Source: a virus
DNA: 43,626 bases
IMG/VR virus record: IMGVR_UViG_3300022223_000009
Span: 1 to 43,626 of that record
Direction: 5' to 3' (one strand)
Below are positions 5,696 to 43,626 of this stretch, in pieces; position 1 is the stretch's first letter, and each line of letters opens with the position of its first letter. The position numbers were made by a program, and so were the translations under genes. The notes beneath the pieces are model-generated. The model was not told the origin of the DNA. It ran no database searches and was given only the letters and a program-made list of their open reading frames with translations.

Positions 5696-5786
5696 CCTCA
5701 CCCAGGCGCAGCGGATCGCGCTGCTAATGTGCGTGCTCGCGCTCTGCTGCACGGTCCCGAGCGATGCACTGGAGGCCGGGCGATGA
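5688..5786 (+). CDS. Possible single-span membrane peptide, 32 aa
   Basis: The ATG overlaps the end of the DUF1643 gene by 8 bp and the stop overlaps the ATG of the methyltransferase gene (ATGA). The product has one hydrophobic stretch, RIALLMCVLALCCTV, long enough for a membrane helix. Coupling at both ends supports translation; function unknown. Confidence 0.45.
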   Translation: MTDLTQAQRIALLMCVLALCCTVPSDALEAGR

Positions 5787-6694
5787 CCCTCCCGATGCAC
5801 ATCGGCTCGCTCTTCTCCGGCATCGGCGGGCTGGAGCTCGGGCTCGAGTGGGCGGGACTCGGCCCCGTGCGCTGGCAGGTCGAGCAAAGCGACTACTGTA
5901 GAGCCGTGCTCGAGCGGCACTGGCCGGAGGCATCGAGGTATGACGACGTGCGAGCAGTGGGAGCAGACCTCGCTCCCGTCGATCTCATCTGCGGCGGGTT
6001 CCCCTGCCAGGACGTGTCCAGCGCAGGAGCGCGCAAGGGCCTTGCTGGAGACCGCTCGGGCCTGTGGGGTGAGTTCGCTCGTGTGGTCGGGGTACTCCGG
6101 CCTAGGTGGGTCGTCGTCGAGAACGTCGCCAGCGGGGCAACCCTCTGGCTCGACGCCGTGGTGCGTGAGTTGGGAGAGCTCGGCTATGCAGCGCTACCGG
6201 TCCCACTGTCGGCGGCGGATGTCGGAGCTCCACACCGGCGAGCACGCATTTTCGTCATTGCTTCCGACGCTGACAGCGAGCGTCGCGAGCCGGGGGCGCG
6301 CGGCACGAGGGCCGAACGCCCAGGGGGGGCCGTCGCTGACCGAGGTGCTGCTGCCGACGCTGACCGAGACGGGCAACCTGGCATCTCCGTCAATGCAGAA
6401 GTGGCCCGGGCATCGGAGGCTGGCGACGCTGTGCGCTCGGGACGCAAAGGGCTCGGGCCCGGCGCAAGGCAGGCAAGGCGGGGACGACCTGCCACGCCAG
6501 CTTGGCGGCCACCTGTCCCCGACTTTCTGCGAGTGGCTGATGGGCTTTCCCGGGGACTGGGGTCGCCTAGACGACGCATAGCCGCCCTCGGCAACAGCGT
6601 GGTGCCCCAGTGCGCTGAGGTGATCGGGTGGATGGTGAGGGAGTTGGCGGCAGAGCAAGCACTAGCGCGCATGGCGCGGAAGGAGGCGAGGTGA
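5783..6694 (+). CDS. C5-cytosine-specific DNA methyltransferase (Dcm-type), 303 aa
   Basis: Transfers a methyl group from S-adenosylmethionine to cytosine C5. Motif I SLFSGIGGLELGLEWAG (residues 9-25), motif IV GGFPCQDVS with the catalytic Cys (about 74), motif VI VVVENV (about 111), motif VIII HRRARIFVIA (about 151) and motif X ALGNSVVP (about 268) are all visible. Residues about 165-250 are the target-recognition region, with the repeated DADxxR style seen in phage enzymes. GGAGG lies 7 bp before the ATG. Likely protects phage DNA from restriction. The region from 5940 to 6581 also encodes a protein-like product in the +1 frame. Confidence 0.92.
   Translation: MTLPMHIGSLFSGIGGLELGLEWAGLGPVRWQVEQSDYCRAVLERHWPEASRYDDVRAVGADLAPVDLICGGFPCQDVSSAGARKGLAGDRSGLWGEFARVVGVLRPRWVVVENVASGATLWLDAVVRELGELGYAALPVPLSAADVGAPHRRARIFVIASDADSERREPGARGTRAERPGGAVADRGAAADADRDGQPGISVNAEVARASEAGDAVRSGRKGLGPGARQARRGRPATPAWRPPVPDFLRVADGLSRGLGSPRRRIAALGNSVVPQCAEVIGWMVRELAAEQALARMARKEAR
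5940..6581 (+). CDS. Candidate overlapping gene inside the cytosine methyltransferase gene, 213 aa
   Basis: A +1-frame ORF wholly inside the methyltransferase gene starts with ATG behind GGAGG (5926-5930, 9 bp spacing). Its product has blocks I recall from stand-alone phage hypothetical proteins: AGSPARTCPAQERARALLE, SGLGGSSSRTSP, an RYRSHCRRRMSELHTGEH stretch, two LLPTLT repeats and CEWLMGFPGDW. The two frames align motif to motif: FPCQD over SPART, DADSER over LPTLTAS, RVADGL over EWLMGF. This could be a true second product, the trace of an ancestral frame change, or a chance effect of GC-rich codons. No function can be assigned. Confidence 0.45.
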   Translation: MTTCEQWEQTSLPSISSAAGSPARTCPAQERARALLETARACGVSSLVWSGYSGLGGSSSRTSPAGQPSGSTPWCVSWESSAMQRYRSHCRRRMSELHTGEHAFSSLLPTLTASVASRGRAARGPNAQGGPSLTEVLLPTLTETGNLASPSMQKWPGHRRLATLCARDAKGSGPAQGRQGGDDLPRQLGGHLSPTFCEWLMGFPGDWGRLDDA

Positions 6695-6697
6695 GCC

Positions 6698-7264
6698 ATG
6701 GCTGACCCCGACACCACCCCCTGCCCTCCCCCGGTGGAGGACCGCGGCCCCTGGCTTCAGACCTACACCGGCCGGGCCTTCTACCCGCTCGCCCCTCGCG
6801 TCGAGGACGTACACCTCGAGGACATCGCCCACGCCCTCGCGCACCAGTGTCGCTTCGCCGGGCACGTGAGGACCTTCTACAGCGTCGCCGAGCACAGCGT
6901 CCGGGCATCGGTCATCGTGCCGCGCGAGTACGCCCTGGCGGCGCTGATGCACGACGCGACCGAGGCCTACGTGGTGGACGTGCCGAGACCGCTCAAGCAA
7001 GCGGTGCCCGCGTTCGGGCTCATCGAGGACGCGGTGGCGATCATCATAGGCGCGGCGTTTGGCGTGGAGCTGTCGAGGCTCCCCAAGGCCGTGAAGCTGG
7101 CCGACCAGGTGATGCTGGCAACCGAGGCCCGTGACCTGATGGCGCCGCCGCCGCGGCAGTGGATGCCGATGCCAGAGCCGCTCGCGGCCGTGATCGAACC
7201 CTGGGGGCCGGAGCAAGCCAAAGGGGCCTTCCTACAGCGCTTCGAGGAGCTGAGGCATGGGTAA
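6698..7264 (+). CDS. HD-domain phosphohydrolase (YfbR-like), 188 aa
   Basis: Metal-dependent phosphohydrolase of the HD superfamily. Visible are a His-rich first helix (DIAHALAHQCRFAGH), FYSVAEHSV and the defining His-Asp in LMHDATEAYVVDVPRPLK (about residue 84), followed by a late VKLADQVMLATEAR helix carrying the distal Asp. This arrangement resembles phage and bacterial 5'-deoxynucleotidases. The likely role is nucleotide-pool adjustment during phage replication; the substrate is inferred. It ends within the start of the MT-A70 gene. Confidence 0.85.
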   Translation: MADPDTTPCPPPVEDRGPWLQTYTGRAFYPLAPRVEDVHLEDIAHALAHQCRFAGHVRTFYSVAEHSVRASVIVPREYALAALMHDATEAYVVDVPRPLKQAVPAFGLIEDAVAIIIGAAFGVELSRLPKAVKLADQVMLATEARDLMAPPPRQWMPMPEPLAAVIEPWGPEQAKGAFLQRFEELRHG

Positions 7265-7769
7265 CCGCGTCACCCGCTACCGCTGCCTCGTCGCCGATCC
7301 GCCCTGGAAGTTCGGCGACTCCCTCCCCGGCAAGGGCCGCGGGGCTGCCAAGCACTACGACTGCATGCCGCTGGCCGAGCTCTGCACCTTCGAGCTCCCG
7401 CCGATGCTGCCGGACTCGTGGCTCTTCCTGTGGCGGGTGGGCTCGATGCAGCAGGAGGCTCTCGCGGTGGCGCGAGCCTGGGGCTTTTCGGTGACCTCGG
7501 AGATCGTCTGGGTGAAGCCGCAGATGGGCATGGGCCGCACCGTGCGCAATTGTCACGAGGTGTGCCTCGTGTGCAGGCGCGGGAAGCCCGAGCGCAAGTC
7601 GGCTGCCGTGCGGTCGTGGTTCGAGGCGCCGCGAGGCCGGCACAGCGCGAAGCCGGAGCGGTTCTTTGAGCTGGTCGAGCAGCTCACCGAGGGGCCCTAC
7701 GTGGAGCTCTTCGCGCGGCGGCAGCGGCCCGGGTGGGTGTGCCTGGGGGCGGAGGTCGAGCAGCCGTGA
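7257..7769 (+). CDS. MT-A70-family adenine-N6 DNA methyltransferase, 170 aa
   Basis: The catalytic motif DPPW occurs near the N-terminus in CLVADPPWKFGD (about residue 15), followed by LPDSWLFLWRVGSM and SEIVWVKPQMGMGRTVRNCHE, the usual order in phage MT-A70 enzymes; ...FFELVEQLTEGPYVELFARR closes the SAM fold. It methylates adenine N6, probably as an anti-restriction or regulatory mark on phage DNA. Its start overlaps the HD gene and its stop overlaps the GTG of the next gene, so the three are probably co-translated. Confidence 0.9.
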   Translation: MGNRVTRYRCLVADPPWKFGDSLPGKGRGAAKHYDCMPLAELCTFELPPMLPDSWLFLWRVGSMQQEALAVARAWGFSVTSEIVWVKPQMGMGRTVRNCHEVCLVCRRGKPERKSAAVRSWFEAPRGRHSAKPERFFELVEQLTEGPYVELFARRQRPGWVCLGAEVEQP

Positions 7770-38731: not shown

Positions 38732-38799
38732 CGGTCGGTCTCCGTGTCTGTGAATCCCAGCAGCGCGCGAAGCCGCTCGAGATCGATTCGGTCAGCCAC
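38728..38799 (-). CDS. Possible 23-residue peptide bridging SbcC and coiled-coil genes
   Basis: GTG start inside the last codons of the SbcC gene and a TGA overlapping the next ATG (ATGA). The product begins MADRIDLERLRALLGF and ends DTETDR: one amphipathic helix. Exact coupling at both sides suggests it is translated, or at least that ribosomes are handed through it. Confidence 0.4.
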   Translation of the reverse strand: MADRIDLERLRALLGFTDTETDR

Positions 38800-41224
38800 C
38801 GTCCACCTCCACCGTCACCCCGCCGTCCGCCACGACGATCCGTGCGTCAGCGAGCTCCCACAGCTCCCGCGAGTGGGACACGAAGAGCACCTTGTCAGCG
38901 CCCACGATCCCCGCTGCCCGCCGCAGCATCGCGACGTACCGCCGGCCATTCTCCGCGTCGAGCGCGGCCCCGCTCTCGTCGCGCACCAGCGTTGGCCGCT
39001 CGACGCCCGCTCTCCGGCACGCCACCATGGTGAGCGCCAGCGACAGGGCCTCGGAGACGATCACCCGCTCGCCGCCGCTCAGCGTCTCGGCCGGCGCTTC
39101 CCTGCCCCGCTCCGTGTCGATCACGGTCACGTCGAAGCTCTCGAGCTCTCGCTTGCCGTCGGCCGACGGCTTCGTGGTGTCGAGCCGCACGGTGAAGCGT
39201 GGACCGAACGCCTCGTGGAGCAGGTCATTGGTCAGCGTCGAGATCTCCGGGCCCGCCGCGTCGATCTCCAGAGCCTGCAGCCCCTTCTTGCCGAGGTCCT
39301 CGTCGAGGCGGGTCCAGTCCGCGAGCTGCTGGTCGAGGGCCACCCGCTCGGCGTCGAGCTCCAGGGCGCGGGCGGCCGACTGCCGGGCGGCCTCCAGCCG
39401 CTGCCCGAGCACGGCGACCTGCCCGTGAGCTCCCCTCGCCCTCTTCTCGGCGCTCTCCAGCGCTGCGCGAAGTGGAGCCACTGCCGGGGCCGGGGAAGGG
39501 AGGGGTTGTGGTGAGAGCGGCCCCGGCAGGGCGTCCAAGTCTTTCGTGGCGCGGTCGATGCGCGCGCCCAGACCCTCGAGCTGGGGACGCAGCTCGGCGA
39601 TGCGCGCCTCGGCCTGGGCCAGGGGGGCGACCCGGGCCAGCAGGGGCGCGAGCGCGTCCCGCTCGCGGCGGAGCTGGCCCGGGCGACCGCGGAGCCGTGC
39701 GGCGCGACCGCTCTCCGCCTCGGCCTGCACGCCTGCTGCCGCGCGCTCCCCATCCAGGTCATTCGCCTCCTTCTCTGCTGCGGCCAGGTCAGCCTCGGCG
39801 TCCGCCATCTCCTGGGAGCGACCCGCCAGACGGGCGGCATCGTCGCGGGCCCTGGTGGCGCCAGTGAGGGCCCGGGCGGCGTCGCTAGCAATCCCCTCGG
39901 CCGCGGCCACGTCTGCCGGCAGCGTCGCGGCGCGCCACACCGTCTCGTCATCAGCCTGCAGGGTGCGGTCGGCTACTCCCGCCGCGTCGCTCCAGTCCAA
40001 GGTAATTGTCGCCAGGCCCTCGCGCAGCTCGAAGATCCGCTCCTCGGCGCCGGCGAGCCGCTCTCTCTGCAGCCGGTGCAGCTCCTGGGCAGCCTGGTCG
40101 CTGTCTTGCTGAGCCTGCACCACGGCCCGCTCCAGGTCCGGTAGGGCCTTGACGGCCACCGCTACCCGCTCGCGGTCCCGGAGGCGTGACCGGGCCCGGT
40201 CGGCGCGCTGCAGGGCCTGCTCTTGCCTCTGCGACAGCGCCGCAGCATTGCTGGCAGCCCGCTTGGATTCCTCCTCCGCTGCTCTGCAGTCCGCCTCGGC
40301 CTGGGTGATCTCCTCCTTCAGCTGCTCGGCCCGGGCCTCGGCCTCGCGGATCTCGCTCGCCCGCCCGAGCAGGTCCTGGTTGTTGGCGATCCGCCGCTCG
40401 ATGTCGGCCGCCTGCTTGTCGAGCTCGCCGAGGCCCTGGCGGAGCCCGGCGCGCTGCTGCTCGAGCTCTGCGGCCCGCTGGCGCCGCTCCTCCACCGCGG
40501 CCAGCGCCCGCTCGTACTCGGCTCCCAGGCGCTCGGCGTCGGCCACGGCTCCCCGGGCCTTCTCGACCTCGGCGTCGGCCTGGACGGCGGCCTGCTGGGC
40601 CTGGGCGAGCTCGGCGGCCAGAGCCTCGGCGTCCCCTCCCCTCTCCCGCTCGTCGTCGATGCGGGCCCGGAGGGTGTCGAGAGCGCGGGAGGTCTCCGCT
40701 CGGTGCCTGCGCGCCCCTTCGGCGAGGGCTTCCAGCTGCTCGATGCCCAGGGCGCGGAGCAGCACCTGCTTGCGCTCGGCGGCCTTCATCGCGAGGAGAC
40801 CCCCGCTCCCCTGCGCCGCGAAGACGCTGGCGTAGAACACCTCGGGCGGCGGCAGGTGCTTGGCGGCCCAGGTCCCGAAGCTCGTGACCTTCGCGTCGCC
40901 GAGCACGGGATCACCGTCGGCGTCGAGCACCAGAGCCTCGCCCTTGCCGCTGATGGCATCGACGCTTTGCCGGATCGTGTAGCGAGAGCCGTTGACCACC
41001 GTGGCTTCGACGAAGGCGTCGCGCTCGGTGGCGAGCTTGGACAGCTTGCCGCGGGTGGGCCCCTCCCGGTACAGGGCGCTCGGGAAGAGCTCGTTGAGCG
41101 TGGACTTCCCTGCCCCGTTGCTGCCGACGACTGCGACCAGGGTGGCGTCGAGCTCCGTCAGGGCGACGGTCTGCTCGCCCTTGAAGGGTCCGAGCCCGCG
41201 GAACTTCAGTGATTCGAGTCTCAT
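38792..41224 (-). CDS. sbcC: SbcC/Rad50-like SMC-type ATPase, 810 aa
   Basis: Walker A VAVVGSNGAGKSTLNE lies at about residues 31-46, a very long Ala/Glu/Arg coiled coil at about 170-640, then signature LSGGERVIVSEALSLAL (about 712), Walker B TLVRDESGAALD and the H-loop VLFVSHSREL. This is the order of SbcC/Rad50/T4 gp46. I find no CxxC zinc-hook motif in the coiled coil. With SbcD it processes DNA ends and hairpins. ATGA overlap with SbcD. Confidence 0.92.
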   Translation of the reverse strand: MRLESLKFRGLGPFKGEQTVALTELDATLVAVVGSNGAGKSTLNELFPSALYREGPTRGKLSKLATERDAFVEATVVNGSRYTIRQSVDAISGKGEALVLDADGDPVLGDAKVTSFGTWAAKHLPPPEVFYASVFAAQGSGGLLAMKAAERKQVLLRALGIEQLEALAEGARRHRAETSRALDTLRARIDDERERGGDAEALAAELAQAQQAAVQADAEVEKARGAVADAERLGAEYERALAAVEERRQRAAELEQQRAGLRQGLGELDKQAADIERRIANNQDLLGRASEIREAEARAEQLKEEITQAEADCRAAEEESKRAASNAAALSQRQEQALQRADRARSRLRDRERVAVAVKALPDLERAVVQAQQDSDQAAQELHRLQRERLAGAEERIFELREGLATITLDWSDAAGVADRTLQADDETVWRAATLPADVAAAEGIASDAARALTGATRARDDAARLAGRSQEMADAEADLAAAEKEANDLDGERAAAGVQAEAESGRAARLRGRPGQLRRERDALAPLLARVAPLAQAEARIAELRPQLEGLGARIDRATKDLDALPGPLSPQPLPSPAPAVAPLRAALESAEKRARGAHGQVAVLGQRLEAARQSAARALELDAERVALDQQLADWTRLDEDLGKKGLQALEIDAAGPEISTLTNDLLHEAFGPRFTVRLDTTKPSADGKRELESFDVTVIDTERGREAPAETLSGGERVIVSEALSLALTMVACRRAGVERPTLVRDESGAALDAENGRRYVAMLRRAAGIVGADKVLFVSHSRELWELADARIVVADGGVTVEVDGG

Positions 41225-42357
41225 TGCATTGCCTCGCTCTGTAGCTGGGTCGTCATCCCGAGAAGTCGAGCCCTGCGCTCCGTCTCGGGCACGGTGCCGC
41301 GTGAGTCCCAGAGCAGACCGAGCTTGTCGGCCAGGGTGGTCGCCGTGGCCACCTCGGGGAGGCGGGCAGTCGAGGTGGCGACCACGCGCTCCTCGAGCTT
41401 GACGGAGTGGGCTCCTGCCTCGGTGATTCGGTCACGCCACGCGAGAGCAGCGGCGCGAGCCGCGTCCCGCTCATCTGCAGGGACGGCGTAGCGCGCTCGC
41501 ACCTCGGCGCCGAGCAGGGAGGGATGCTCGAGGCCCAGCAGCTGGCCGTCGCGCCACCGCCCGTCGAGCTGCACCATCGGCCTGGCCGGCGTCGCCTCTC
41601 GCCTCCAGAGCAGCTGCCCGCCGGGCCCCCACTCCACGACCGTGACGCTCTTCTCCTCCACCTCTCCAAATGCGGTGCGGACAGGGGACCCGGTGTAGAC
41701 GATCGGCGACCCGTTCCACTCCCACTCCTGCGGCTTGTGAATGTGCCCGGCGATCGTGATGTCCGCGCCGGCCAGCCCGAGCTCCTCGCGCCCCACGTTG
41801 AGCTCGGCCCCGATGAGCGGCTGCCCCGTGCTCGTCTCCGAGCCGTCGATCATCGCGTGCGTGAGCAGCACCGACGGGCCGGTCCCGCGCGTCTCGATGC
41901 CCCGGCGGAGCCCGCGCAGCACGTCTCCCATCAGCGCCCGCGCCGTCTGGTCCCGAGCCTCCCCCGCCTGCCCGGTCTGCCGAGCGAGCCAAGCGGTGTT
42001 CGGCCAGGCCATGCAGGCCACCGCAACGCCCCCCACGACGTGCACCGCCGCCCCCTCCTCGACGATGACCGGGTGCCGCGTGCGGAGCCTCCCGAGCAGC
42101 ACGAGGTCGCGGTGCTTGTCGTGGTTGCCGCGCACGATGACCACCGGGCAGACCTCGGCGATCCGCGTGAGCCAGTCGGCCACAGCTTCCCGTTCGACCG
42201 GGGTGCTCGCCCGGTCGTAGAGGTCGCCGGCGGAGAGGAACGCATCGGGGCGCTCCTCCTCCACCAACTCGGCGATCCAGGTGTGGACGCGGACGCACTC
42301 CTCAAAGCGCGCCCCCTCGGCGAAGTGGTGATCGCCGGATGCGATGATCTTGTGCAT
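41221..42357 (-). CDS. sbcD: SbcD/Mre11-like nuclease, 378 aa
   Basis: AAGGAGCAGACC precedes the ATG; the open frame upstream of it does not continue the family. The calcineurin-type phosphodiesterase motifs are complete: SGDHHFAEG (residue about 8), SAGDLYDRAS (about 46), VRGNHDKHRD (about 75), LTHAMIDG and AGHIHKPQEW (about 203), with TGSPVRTAFGE. The C-terminal 120 residues would bind SbcC. Two-metal exo/endonuclease paired with the overlapping SbcC gene, like T4 gp47/gp46. Confidence 0.93.
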   Translation of the reverse strand: MHKIIASGDHHFAEGARFEECVRVHTWIAELVEEERPDAFLSAGDLYDRASTPVEREAVADWLTRIAEVCPVVIVRGNHDKHRDLVLLGRLRTRHPVIVEEGAAVHVVGGVAVACMAWPNTAWLARQTGQAGEARDQTARALMGDVLRGLRRGIETRGTGPSVLLTHAMIDGSETSTGQPLIGAELNVGREELGLAGADITIAGHIHKPQEWEWNGSPIVYTGSPVRTAFGEVEEKSVTVVEWGPGGQLLWRREATPARPMVQLDGRWRDGQLLGLEHPSLLGAEVRARYAVPADERDAARAAALAWRDRITEAGAHSVKLEERVVATSTARLPEVATATTLADKLGLLWDSRGTVPETERRARLLGMTTQLQSEAMQ

Positions 42358-42389
42358 GGTCTGCTCCTTCCTCGTCAAGGTGGTACCGG

Positions 42390-43043
42390 TCAGGCTGCGC
42401 GCAAGGCCTTCGCCTCGTTGGCGAGCGTCTTGTCGATGTCGAAGAGCTCGCGCATCCGGAGGAAGGCAGCGACGGCGGAGCCCCTCACGCTCTCCGGCAC
42501 TTCGTACTCCTGCCAGGCTCCGTCGTCCTTGCCGATGCGCAGAACGATCGGCGGAGCGTCGAGCGGGATATCGGCCTCGCGCGCCAGCATGTCGTAGGCG
42601 CAGACCTGGATGATCGAGTCCGGGTAGATCGCCCCTGTCTTCAGATCGAGCACGCGCGACTTGCCGCGCACCAAGCCAACGATGTCGATCACCCCACCGA
42701 AGAGGTGGGTCTCCGAGATGAGCTGGCACTCGCTGCGCTGCACGTGGAAGTCCTGCGCGACCTTCCACCCGCAGAACGCCTGGAAGGACCGCTCGGCGCC
42801 CTTGCGCAAATCGCTGGCGAGCTCGGGGTAGACGGTCAGCTCGCGCCCCGCCAGGTGATCGCTGCACCACTGGTGGGCGACGGTGCCAACGGCGAGCGGT
42901 CCCTTGCGGGCCTCGACGAGCGTCTTGCCCGCGAGGCCCTGCTTGTTGGCCCAAGCGATCAGGGCGCCGCTCTCCTTGAAGCGGTTGACAATGGTGGTGA
43001 CGGCGGGGACGCGCTGCCCCGCCCGGGTCTTCAGTACAGCCAT
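42390..43043 (-). CDS. PD-(D/E)XK nuclease (Cas4/RecB-like family), 217 aa
   Basis: CGGAGAGATCACC precedes the ATG. Early motif TTIVNRFKESGALIAW, a helix with VGTVAHQWCSDHL, then the catalytic core HLFGGVIDIVGLVRGKS (Asp about 119) and RVLDLKTGAIYPDSIIQVCAYD (Asp-x-Lys about 130-132, Gln and Tyr of the RecB motif) are clear. No Cys cluster for an iron-sulfur site. It should resect DNA ends. Its neighbour may be the matching annealing or ssDNA-binding protein. Confidence 0.87.
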   Translation of the reverse strand: MAVLKTRAGQRVPAVTTIVNRFKESGALIAWANKQGLAGKTLVEARKGPLAVGTVAHQWCSDHLAGRELTVYPELASDLRKGAERSFQAFCGWKVAQDFHVQRSECQLISETHLFGGVIDIVGLVRGKSRVLDLKTGAIYPDSIIQVCAYDMLAREADIPLDAPPIVLRIGKDDGAWQEYEVPESVRGSAVAAFLRMRELFDIDKTLANEAKALRAA

Positions 43044-43076
43044 GGTGATCTCTCCGTCTCGGGTGGTGGTGGCCGC

Positions 43077-43626
43077 TCAGTAGCGGGCGTCGTAGTCGTC
43101 TTCCTGCCCGCTCGGGCGCTGCGCCGGCGGGGGGAACTGCACCGTGTCGCGCACCGGCGGCGGCGCCGCGGGCGGCCCGAAGAGCGCGGCCTCGGCCTGC
43201 ATGGACTGCTCGAAGGCCTTCATCGCGAATGCCCGCCTGAGCTCCGGGTCGTCGGTGGCCCCGGTGCGCATCAGGCGCGCGACCGCAAACGGCTTCTGCA
43301 GCTCCTGCGGCGTGTAGGAGGTCTGGATGCCGAGCGCGCGGATGACGCGGTTCTTCGCCTTCGACTCCGCCATCTCCACGATGAACTTGCGCTGCTGCGG
43401 TAGCTGCTTCGCGCTCATCTTCTGGGCGTCGGCGGACCCGTCGCGCAGGTCGCTGGTCTTGTTGGCCATCAGGCTGCGCGGCGTACCATCGAAGAGGAAC
43501 ACACGGCCGCACGCCTCCCACTCCACGTAGTAGGGGTGGGAGCGATCGTCGATCCGGCGCGATGAGAGCCAGGAGATCCCAGCGGCTCCAGCGATCCGAT
43601 CGAGGGCAGCCTTCGTGAGCCCCAGC
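43077..43626 (-). CDS. Putative phage recombination-associated protein, C-terminal part (runs off right edge)
   Basis: The frame is open from the right edge and enters as LGLTKAALDRIAGAAGISWL, then RRIDDRSHPYYVEWEACGRV, DLRDGSADAQKM, EMAESKAKNRVIRALGIQTS and TPQELQKPFAVARL, ending in a Pro-rich tail. The 'ESKAKNRxIRALG' segment is reminiscent of single-strand annealing proteins and of a recurrent phage family. The pairing with a PD-(D/E)XK nuclease supports a recombination role, but this is inference. The missing N-terminal part is probably the fragment at 1-394. An internal ATG at 43526 is not the true start. Confidence 0.7.
   Translation of the reverse strand, partial: LGLTKAALDRIAGAAGISWLSSRRIDDRSHPYYVEWEACGRVFLFDGTPRSLMANKTSDLRDGSADAQKMSAKQLPQQRKFIVEMAESKAKNRVIRALGIQTSYTPQELQKPFAVARLMRTGATDDPELRRAFAMKAFEQSMQAEAALFGPPAAPPPVRDTVQFPPPAQRPSGQEDDYDARY

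Follow-up and report, generated by a model that had tools for sequence, protein, structure and literature searches.

Overlapping frames of a phage C5-cytosine methyltransferase locus probably encode the two subunits of one split enzyme

Tools for targeted methylation have been built from split C5-methyltransferases. In M.EcoHK31I (YGGCCR), the enzyme of Lee, Kam and Shaw 1995, the small subunit is reportedly produced from an alternative frame inside the gene of the large one. Two separate families of phage proteins, PHROG 363 and PHROG 1008, are both labelled DNA methyltransferase and their overlap is not stated. M.EcoHK31I is described as consisting of two polypeptides (PMC3404938): the large one carries motifs I-VIII and X, the small one motif IX. 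Its recognition domain (TRD) is assigned there to the large subunit by prediction, not by experimental definition (PMC3404938). The same source describes M.AquI (CYCGRG) as a naturally split C5-methyltransferase of two polypeptides, with motifs IX and X in the small subunit (PMC3404938).

The locus examined here lies in a viral record of 43,626 nucleotides (IMG/VR IMGVR_UViG_3300022223_000009), the whole of which is called the window below. The record belongs to a GC-rich temperate phage in which integrase, DnaB-like helicase, terminase and portal are present. Two overlapping open reading frames, alpha and beta, are considered, with the following parts.

5783..6694, + strand: alpha, predicted large subunit of a C5-cytosine methyltransferase (motifs I-VIII and X; from PF00145, phrog_363 and the sequence)
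5926..5930, + strand: GGAGG, Shine-Dalgarno-like, for beta, 9 nt before the beta ATG and within the alpha codons W-P-E-A
5940..6581, + strand: beta, +1-frame ORF of 213 aa with an ATG start, proposed small subunit (TRD and motif IX; from phrog_1008 and the tests of openness and selection)
5999..6010, + strand: alpha motif IV, FPCQ, with the catalytic Cys; its +1 partner is SPAR (from the translation)
6119..6127, + strand: alpha motif VI, ENV (from the translation)
6090..6253, + strand: dual-coding stretch, in which the catalytic region of alpha, as far as motif VIII (PHRRARIF), coincides with the conserved beta N-terminal module (beta columns above the synonymous null, no stops)
6254..6560, + strand: variable region between motifs VIII and IX, with LPTLT-type repeats in beta; alpha is open and apparently unconstrained in relatives (from pN/pS and the wobble position)
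6513..6560, + strand: beta motif IX, LSPTFCEWLMGFPGDW, read in alpha as LRVADGLSRGL (conserved among beta relatives, in the catalytic frame in natural relatives)
6587..6610, + strand: alpha motif X, LGNSVVPQ, which shares the catalytic frame in loci of the window type (from the translation)

Alpha begins at ATG 5783, with GGAGG at 5771-5775, and GTG at 5729 offers an alternative start. It possesses the PF00145 motifs I, IV (PCQ), VI (ENV) and VIII that mark a C5-cytosine methyltransferase, and it has no TRD with motif IX on its own chain; motif IX sits in the +1 frame. The Pfam match (E 3e-34) covers residues 5-167 only and ends after motif VIII. Searches with the protein of each frame, as proposed in a preliminary description of this DNA, led from alpha to PHROG 363 (E 2e-65) and from beta to PHROG 1008 (E 2.9e-12). 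That description had reported the +1 ORF, its 213 codons and ATG, and a well-placed GGAGG upstream, all of which are exactly as claimed; counted from stop to stop, the beta frame spans 264 open codons. The frame partners that it named are also right (GFPCQDVSSAG/GSPARTCPAQE, SDADSER/LPTLTAS and LRVADGLS/CEWLMGFPG).

Downstream of alpha, the segment 6698-7264 holds a deoxyribonucleoside 5'-monophosphate phosphatase-like gene, followed by a second DNA methyltransferase at 7257-7769 (phrog_359, DPPW motif), probably an N6-adenine enzyme. Towards the end of the window, two ORFs of 810 and 766 aa (38792-41224 and 41221-43521) lie on the minus strand amid many plus-strand ORFs.

As in the published description of M.EcoHK31I, motifs I-VIII and X of the window lie on alpha and motif IX on beta. 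The small subunit proposed here is moreover a nested +1 ORF under selection, an arrangement that M.EcoHK31I is said to share. The two systems differ in the TRD, which is predicted in the large subunit of M.EcoHK31I, whereas the recognition repeats of the present locus belong to beta, judging by selection and by single-frame relatives. Unlike M.AquI, the window type keeps motif X in alpha (6587-6610), so that its small subunit does not combine IX with X. M.HhaI and the other PF00145 monomers share with the window the large domain (I-VIII) plus motif X as found in alpha and the order of TRD, then motif IX; however, they consist of one chain read in one frame, whereas the small domain is here borne by a second, overlapping ORF.

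In the window gene alone, a +1 stretch of this length has a probability of 0.004 under synonymous codon permutation; this is unusual and not decisive at 69% GC, and relatives decide. An alpha search (80 loci) and beta searches together gave 137 distinct loci with a GC content of about 0.36-0.71. Between the FPC motif and motif VIII, 26 stops were counted in the +1 frame versus 226 expected, and all 26 precede conserved beta, at codon 6, 8 or 15 past FPC. The interval from motif VIII to motif IX contains a single stop versus 177 expected. After motif IX the number is close to expectation (25 versus 30), and the constraint therefore stops at motif IX, where beta ends. Stops in the +2 frame are near expected in both intervals (429/464 from FPC to VIII, 717/745 from VIII to IX). 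As a control, 225 flanking ORFs on the same contigs contained 1881 +1 stops versus 1995 expected (ratio 0.94), and none of the 225 was open. With beta as the reference, the alpha frame shows 0 stops versus 371 expected between motifs VIII and IX. The beta frame is also open in relatives at GC 0.34-0.45. Both frames are held open by selection. A single in-frame stop, the sole case in the 137 loci, occurs in the beta variable region of L066, possibly a degraded copy or one with a sequencing error.

Substitution rates by codon position, a check suggested at the outset for both frames, locate the selected frame. Before the overlap, alpha follows the usual coding pattern, with rates of 0.166, 0.106 and 0.424 at positions 1, 2 and 3 (20 disjoint close pairs). 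In the variable region the rates at beta positions 1, 2 and 3 are 0.154, 0.140 and 0.315 (20 disjoint pairs); the wobble position there is the beta third position, which is the alpha first. Furthermore, pN/pS between motifs VIII and IX amounts to 0.34 for beta and 1.17 for alpha (18 pairs), and identity in the variable region is higher for beta than for alpha in 18/18 pairs. The variable region is selected as beta, not as alpha. Within the catalytic overlap, constraint falls mainly on alpha (pN/pS 0.25), and synonymous change drops from 0.648 to 0.358. The conserved N-terminal module of beta begins at codon 31 after FPC, and beta residues in this overlap (codons 31-85) exceed the synonymous conservation null, 79.6 versus 19.6. 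Since the +2 frame also lies above its null (56.8 versus 19.8), this conservation test is inflated by shared ancestry. In each of the two start groups, combinations of a beta ATG with a Shine-Dalgarno sequence are more numerous than under the synonymous null (14/19 versus 5.1 and 32/118 versus 10.8). Stops or free substitution in the +1 frame of close relatives, which would speak against a second coding frame, were looked for and did not occur.

The beta relatives share one order of elements: an N-terminal module (SSWRTSQ...WPRSGMMRNG), then [LWF]PTPTA repeats, then LNPxFVEWLMGFPxGW. Each of the 74 beta proteins that were tested hits PHROG 1008. Most LPTPxARD repeats and the F.EWMMGWPxGW of mycobacteriophage DillTech15 gp66 and its kin are located in the catalytic frame, between motifs VIII and X, and single-frame relatives of this type align with beta over the entire stretch (alignment checked by eye). 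PF00145 matches two loci end to end, L360 (profile 2-323) and L266 (4-317), with this motif IX included. The segment LNPDWVEWLMGFPIGW...LGNAVVP of L355 is collinear with motifs IX-X of M.HhaI, at a weak score. Because natural relatives have these elements in the catalytic frame and alpha is devoid of motif IX, beta is best read, from its sequence relationships, as the TRD plus motif IX of a two-polypeptide methyltransferase.

Pfam gave no match for beta, a search of PDB sequences with a beta profile gave no relative, and the N-terminal module had no counterpart among the families searched. With the window beta alone, tblastn against annotated phages returned nothing; beta proteins of relatives did find matches. 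In AlphaFold2, beta alone folds poorly (pLDDT 61). The frame-shifted reading that joins alpha (I-VIII) to beta (TRD-IX) reaches a pTM of 0.55, with Foldseek matches in the PDB of about 165-210 columns, mostly in the large domain.

Across relatives, the catalytic part occupies frame 0 in all layouts, and four arrangements of the remaining motifs are distinguished. In layout D, the window type, TRD and IX are in +1 and X in frame 0; it accounts for 142/147 viral loci that came from the beta searches and could be scored, and for 58/80 loci in bacterial genomes; most of the others are truncated or escaped the motif pattern. The bacterial-genome loci come from many phyla, judging by record title. 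Layout Q puts TRD, IX and X together in +1 (phage loci L275, L285, L290, L292-L294, L296, L298); alpha stops after VIII, and a long +1 ORF overlaps it by about 200-370 nt. These layout Q loci resemble M.AquI in uniting IX and X in the second ORF. In layout R, the TRD is in +1 while IX and X are in the catalytic frame (L257, which is Gordonia phage Rabbitrun, L355, L360, L414, L130, L131, L133), and AT-rich Rickettsiales-type genomes with a GC content of 0.34-0.36 are included. Layout S, found in mycobacteriophages, keeps IX and X in frame 0 along with most TRD modules. In one Micromonospora locus (L403), the beta frame holds the N-terminal catalytic motifs and alpha holds the others, which looks as though alpha had been broken by a frameshift.

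The preliminary description had linked the blocks of beta to free-standing phage proteins, and this did not hold up: beta overlaps alpha in every examined locus that extends far enough. A search for free-standing beta in 160 viral loci and in 80 from bacterial genomes gave no example, and those long enough have alpha in frame -1, fused or in mosaic form; the motif pattern used in this search missed 13 viral and 8 bacterial loci, and six of the viral ones were read by eye. An apparent free-standing beta in Vibrio phage 1.236.O (L421) was rejected, as the catalytic alpha is present in the overlapping frame. Annotation is uneven. Both ORFs have been annotated, by annotators working independently, in Paenibacillus phage Shelly (gp55/gp56, 'g55 internal gene'), in Bloom (56/57) and in Escherichia phage K1ind3 (ORF30/ORF29); alpha alone in N15 (gene 58) and Lacticaseibacillus phage R9.1; and beta alone in Vibrio phage 1.236.O (as a hypothetical protein) and Microcystis phage Mwe-JY08. 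Such beta-only annotations can explain the proteins described as free-standing. Gene 58 of the laboratory coliphage N15 (L427:24547-25542) contains an unannotated beta of 242 open codons (P = 0.0075, synonymous permutation). This N15 cytosine methyltransferase gene is a handy test system for beta.

Three other explanations have to be weighed. Openness of the +1 frame might be a by-product of high GC and conserved enzyme codons, with PHROG 1008 as an annotation artefact; the window at 69% GC does contain many long spurious ORFs. A chance ORF at high GC is ruled out by the synonymous nulls and the control genes. The beta frame stays open in AT-richer relatives, the near-absence of +1 stops between VIII and IX has no parallel in the matched +2 frame or the 225 flanking genes, and the variable region is selected as beta rather than alpha, which together leave this explanation extremely improbable. 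Programmed +1 ribosomal frameshifting after motif VIII would instead yield one fused enzyme (I-VIII plus TRD-IX) with no separate initiation. Such a product would look like a canonical enzyme, single-frame relatives exist, and in most layout Q loci alpha ends 7-14 codons past VIII, leaving TRD, IX and X to the +1 frame. However, the window layout retains X in frame 0, so that the fused chain would either have no X or require another shift. Conserved beta residues are found in codons 31-85 of the catalytic region, ahead of any site for such a shift, and internal Shine-Dalgarno/ATG sites are enriched. We regard frameshifting as unlikely.

It is slightly less likely again that beta is a true overprinted protein outside the methyltransferase, for example an unrelated regulator or an anti-host factor. 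The lack of a Pfam domain and an N-terminal module that stands apart from the families searched would suit such a protein. Against it, natural single-chain methyltransferases carry the repeats and motif IX collinearly, within their own reading frame between VIII and X; the enzyme encoded by alpha is short of exactly this motif; and in the loci examined that extend far enough, beta was never seen without alpha.

We therefore prefer to read the locus, with a probability of roughly 0.87, as encoding a split C5-cytosine DNA methyltransferase, the two subunits of which occupy different, nested frames. Translation of beta, complex formation, activity and target are parts of this reading that we infer. 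Alpha, in frame 0, would provide AdoMet binding and catalysis (motifs I-VIII) as well as motif X, and between VIII and X it would be a passenger, required to stay open and otherwise free. Beta would initiate at the internal Shine-Dalgarno/ATG site in the +1 frame. Its conserved N-terminal module, perhaps the part that binds alpha, would be followed by target-recognition repeats and then motif IX. Upon association of the two, beta would supply the small DNA-recognising domain in trans to the catalytic large domain of alpha. The likely purpose is methylation of phage DNA to evade host restriction. The preliminary description had offered two products of one region and two families that are frame-shifted readings of one gene as alternatives, and each half stands in part: depletion of stops in both frames and selection on +1 in the variable region point to two products, the second of them presumably translated, and PHROG 1008 and PHROG 363 are frame partners of one gene.

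On balance, we also favour a more general picture: a large phage and prophage family of cytosine methyltransferases, spanning phyla, in which the catalytic gene systematically bears the recognition subunit as an overprint. TRD, IX and X would be split between frames in at least four layouts, and the gene would be a frame-switching mosaic, one frame evolving sequence specificity and the other just staying open. The split of M.EcoHK31I with motif IX on the small subunit is already known; new are the breadth, the evidence for the TRD in beta and the four layouts. No report of a phage-wide overlap was found in the literature searched, which took in few subscription papers.

If this reading is true, many phage and prophage genes labelled 'DNA methyltransferase' encode two required proteins, of which usually one is annotated. 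A cloned alpha alone may then be inactive, and predictions of specificity from alpha would use the wrong frame. For the study of overlapping-gene evolution, the loci would offer a natural collection of long dual-coding genes that is uncommonly large and persists at 34-70% GC. Lastly, the site of recognition in split C5-methyltransferases would be revised.
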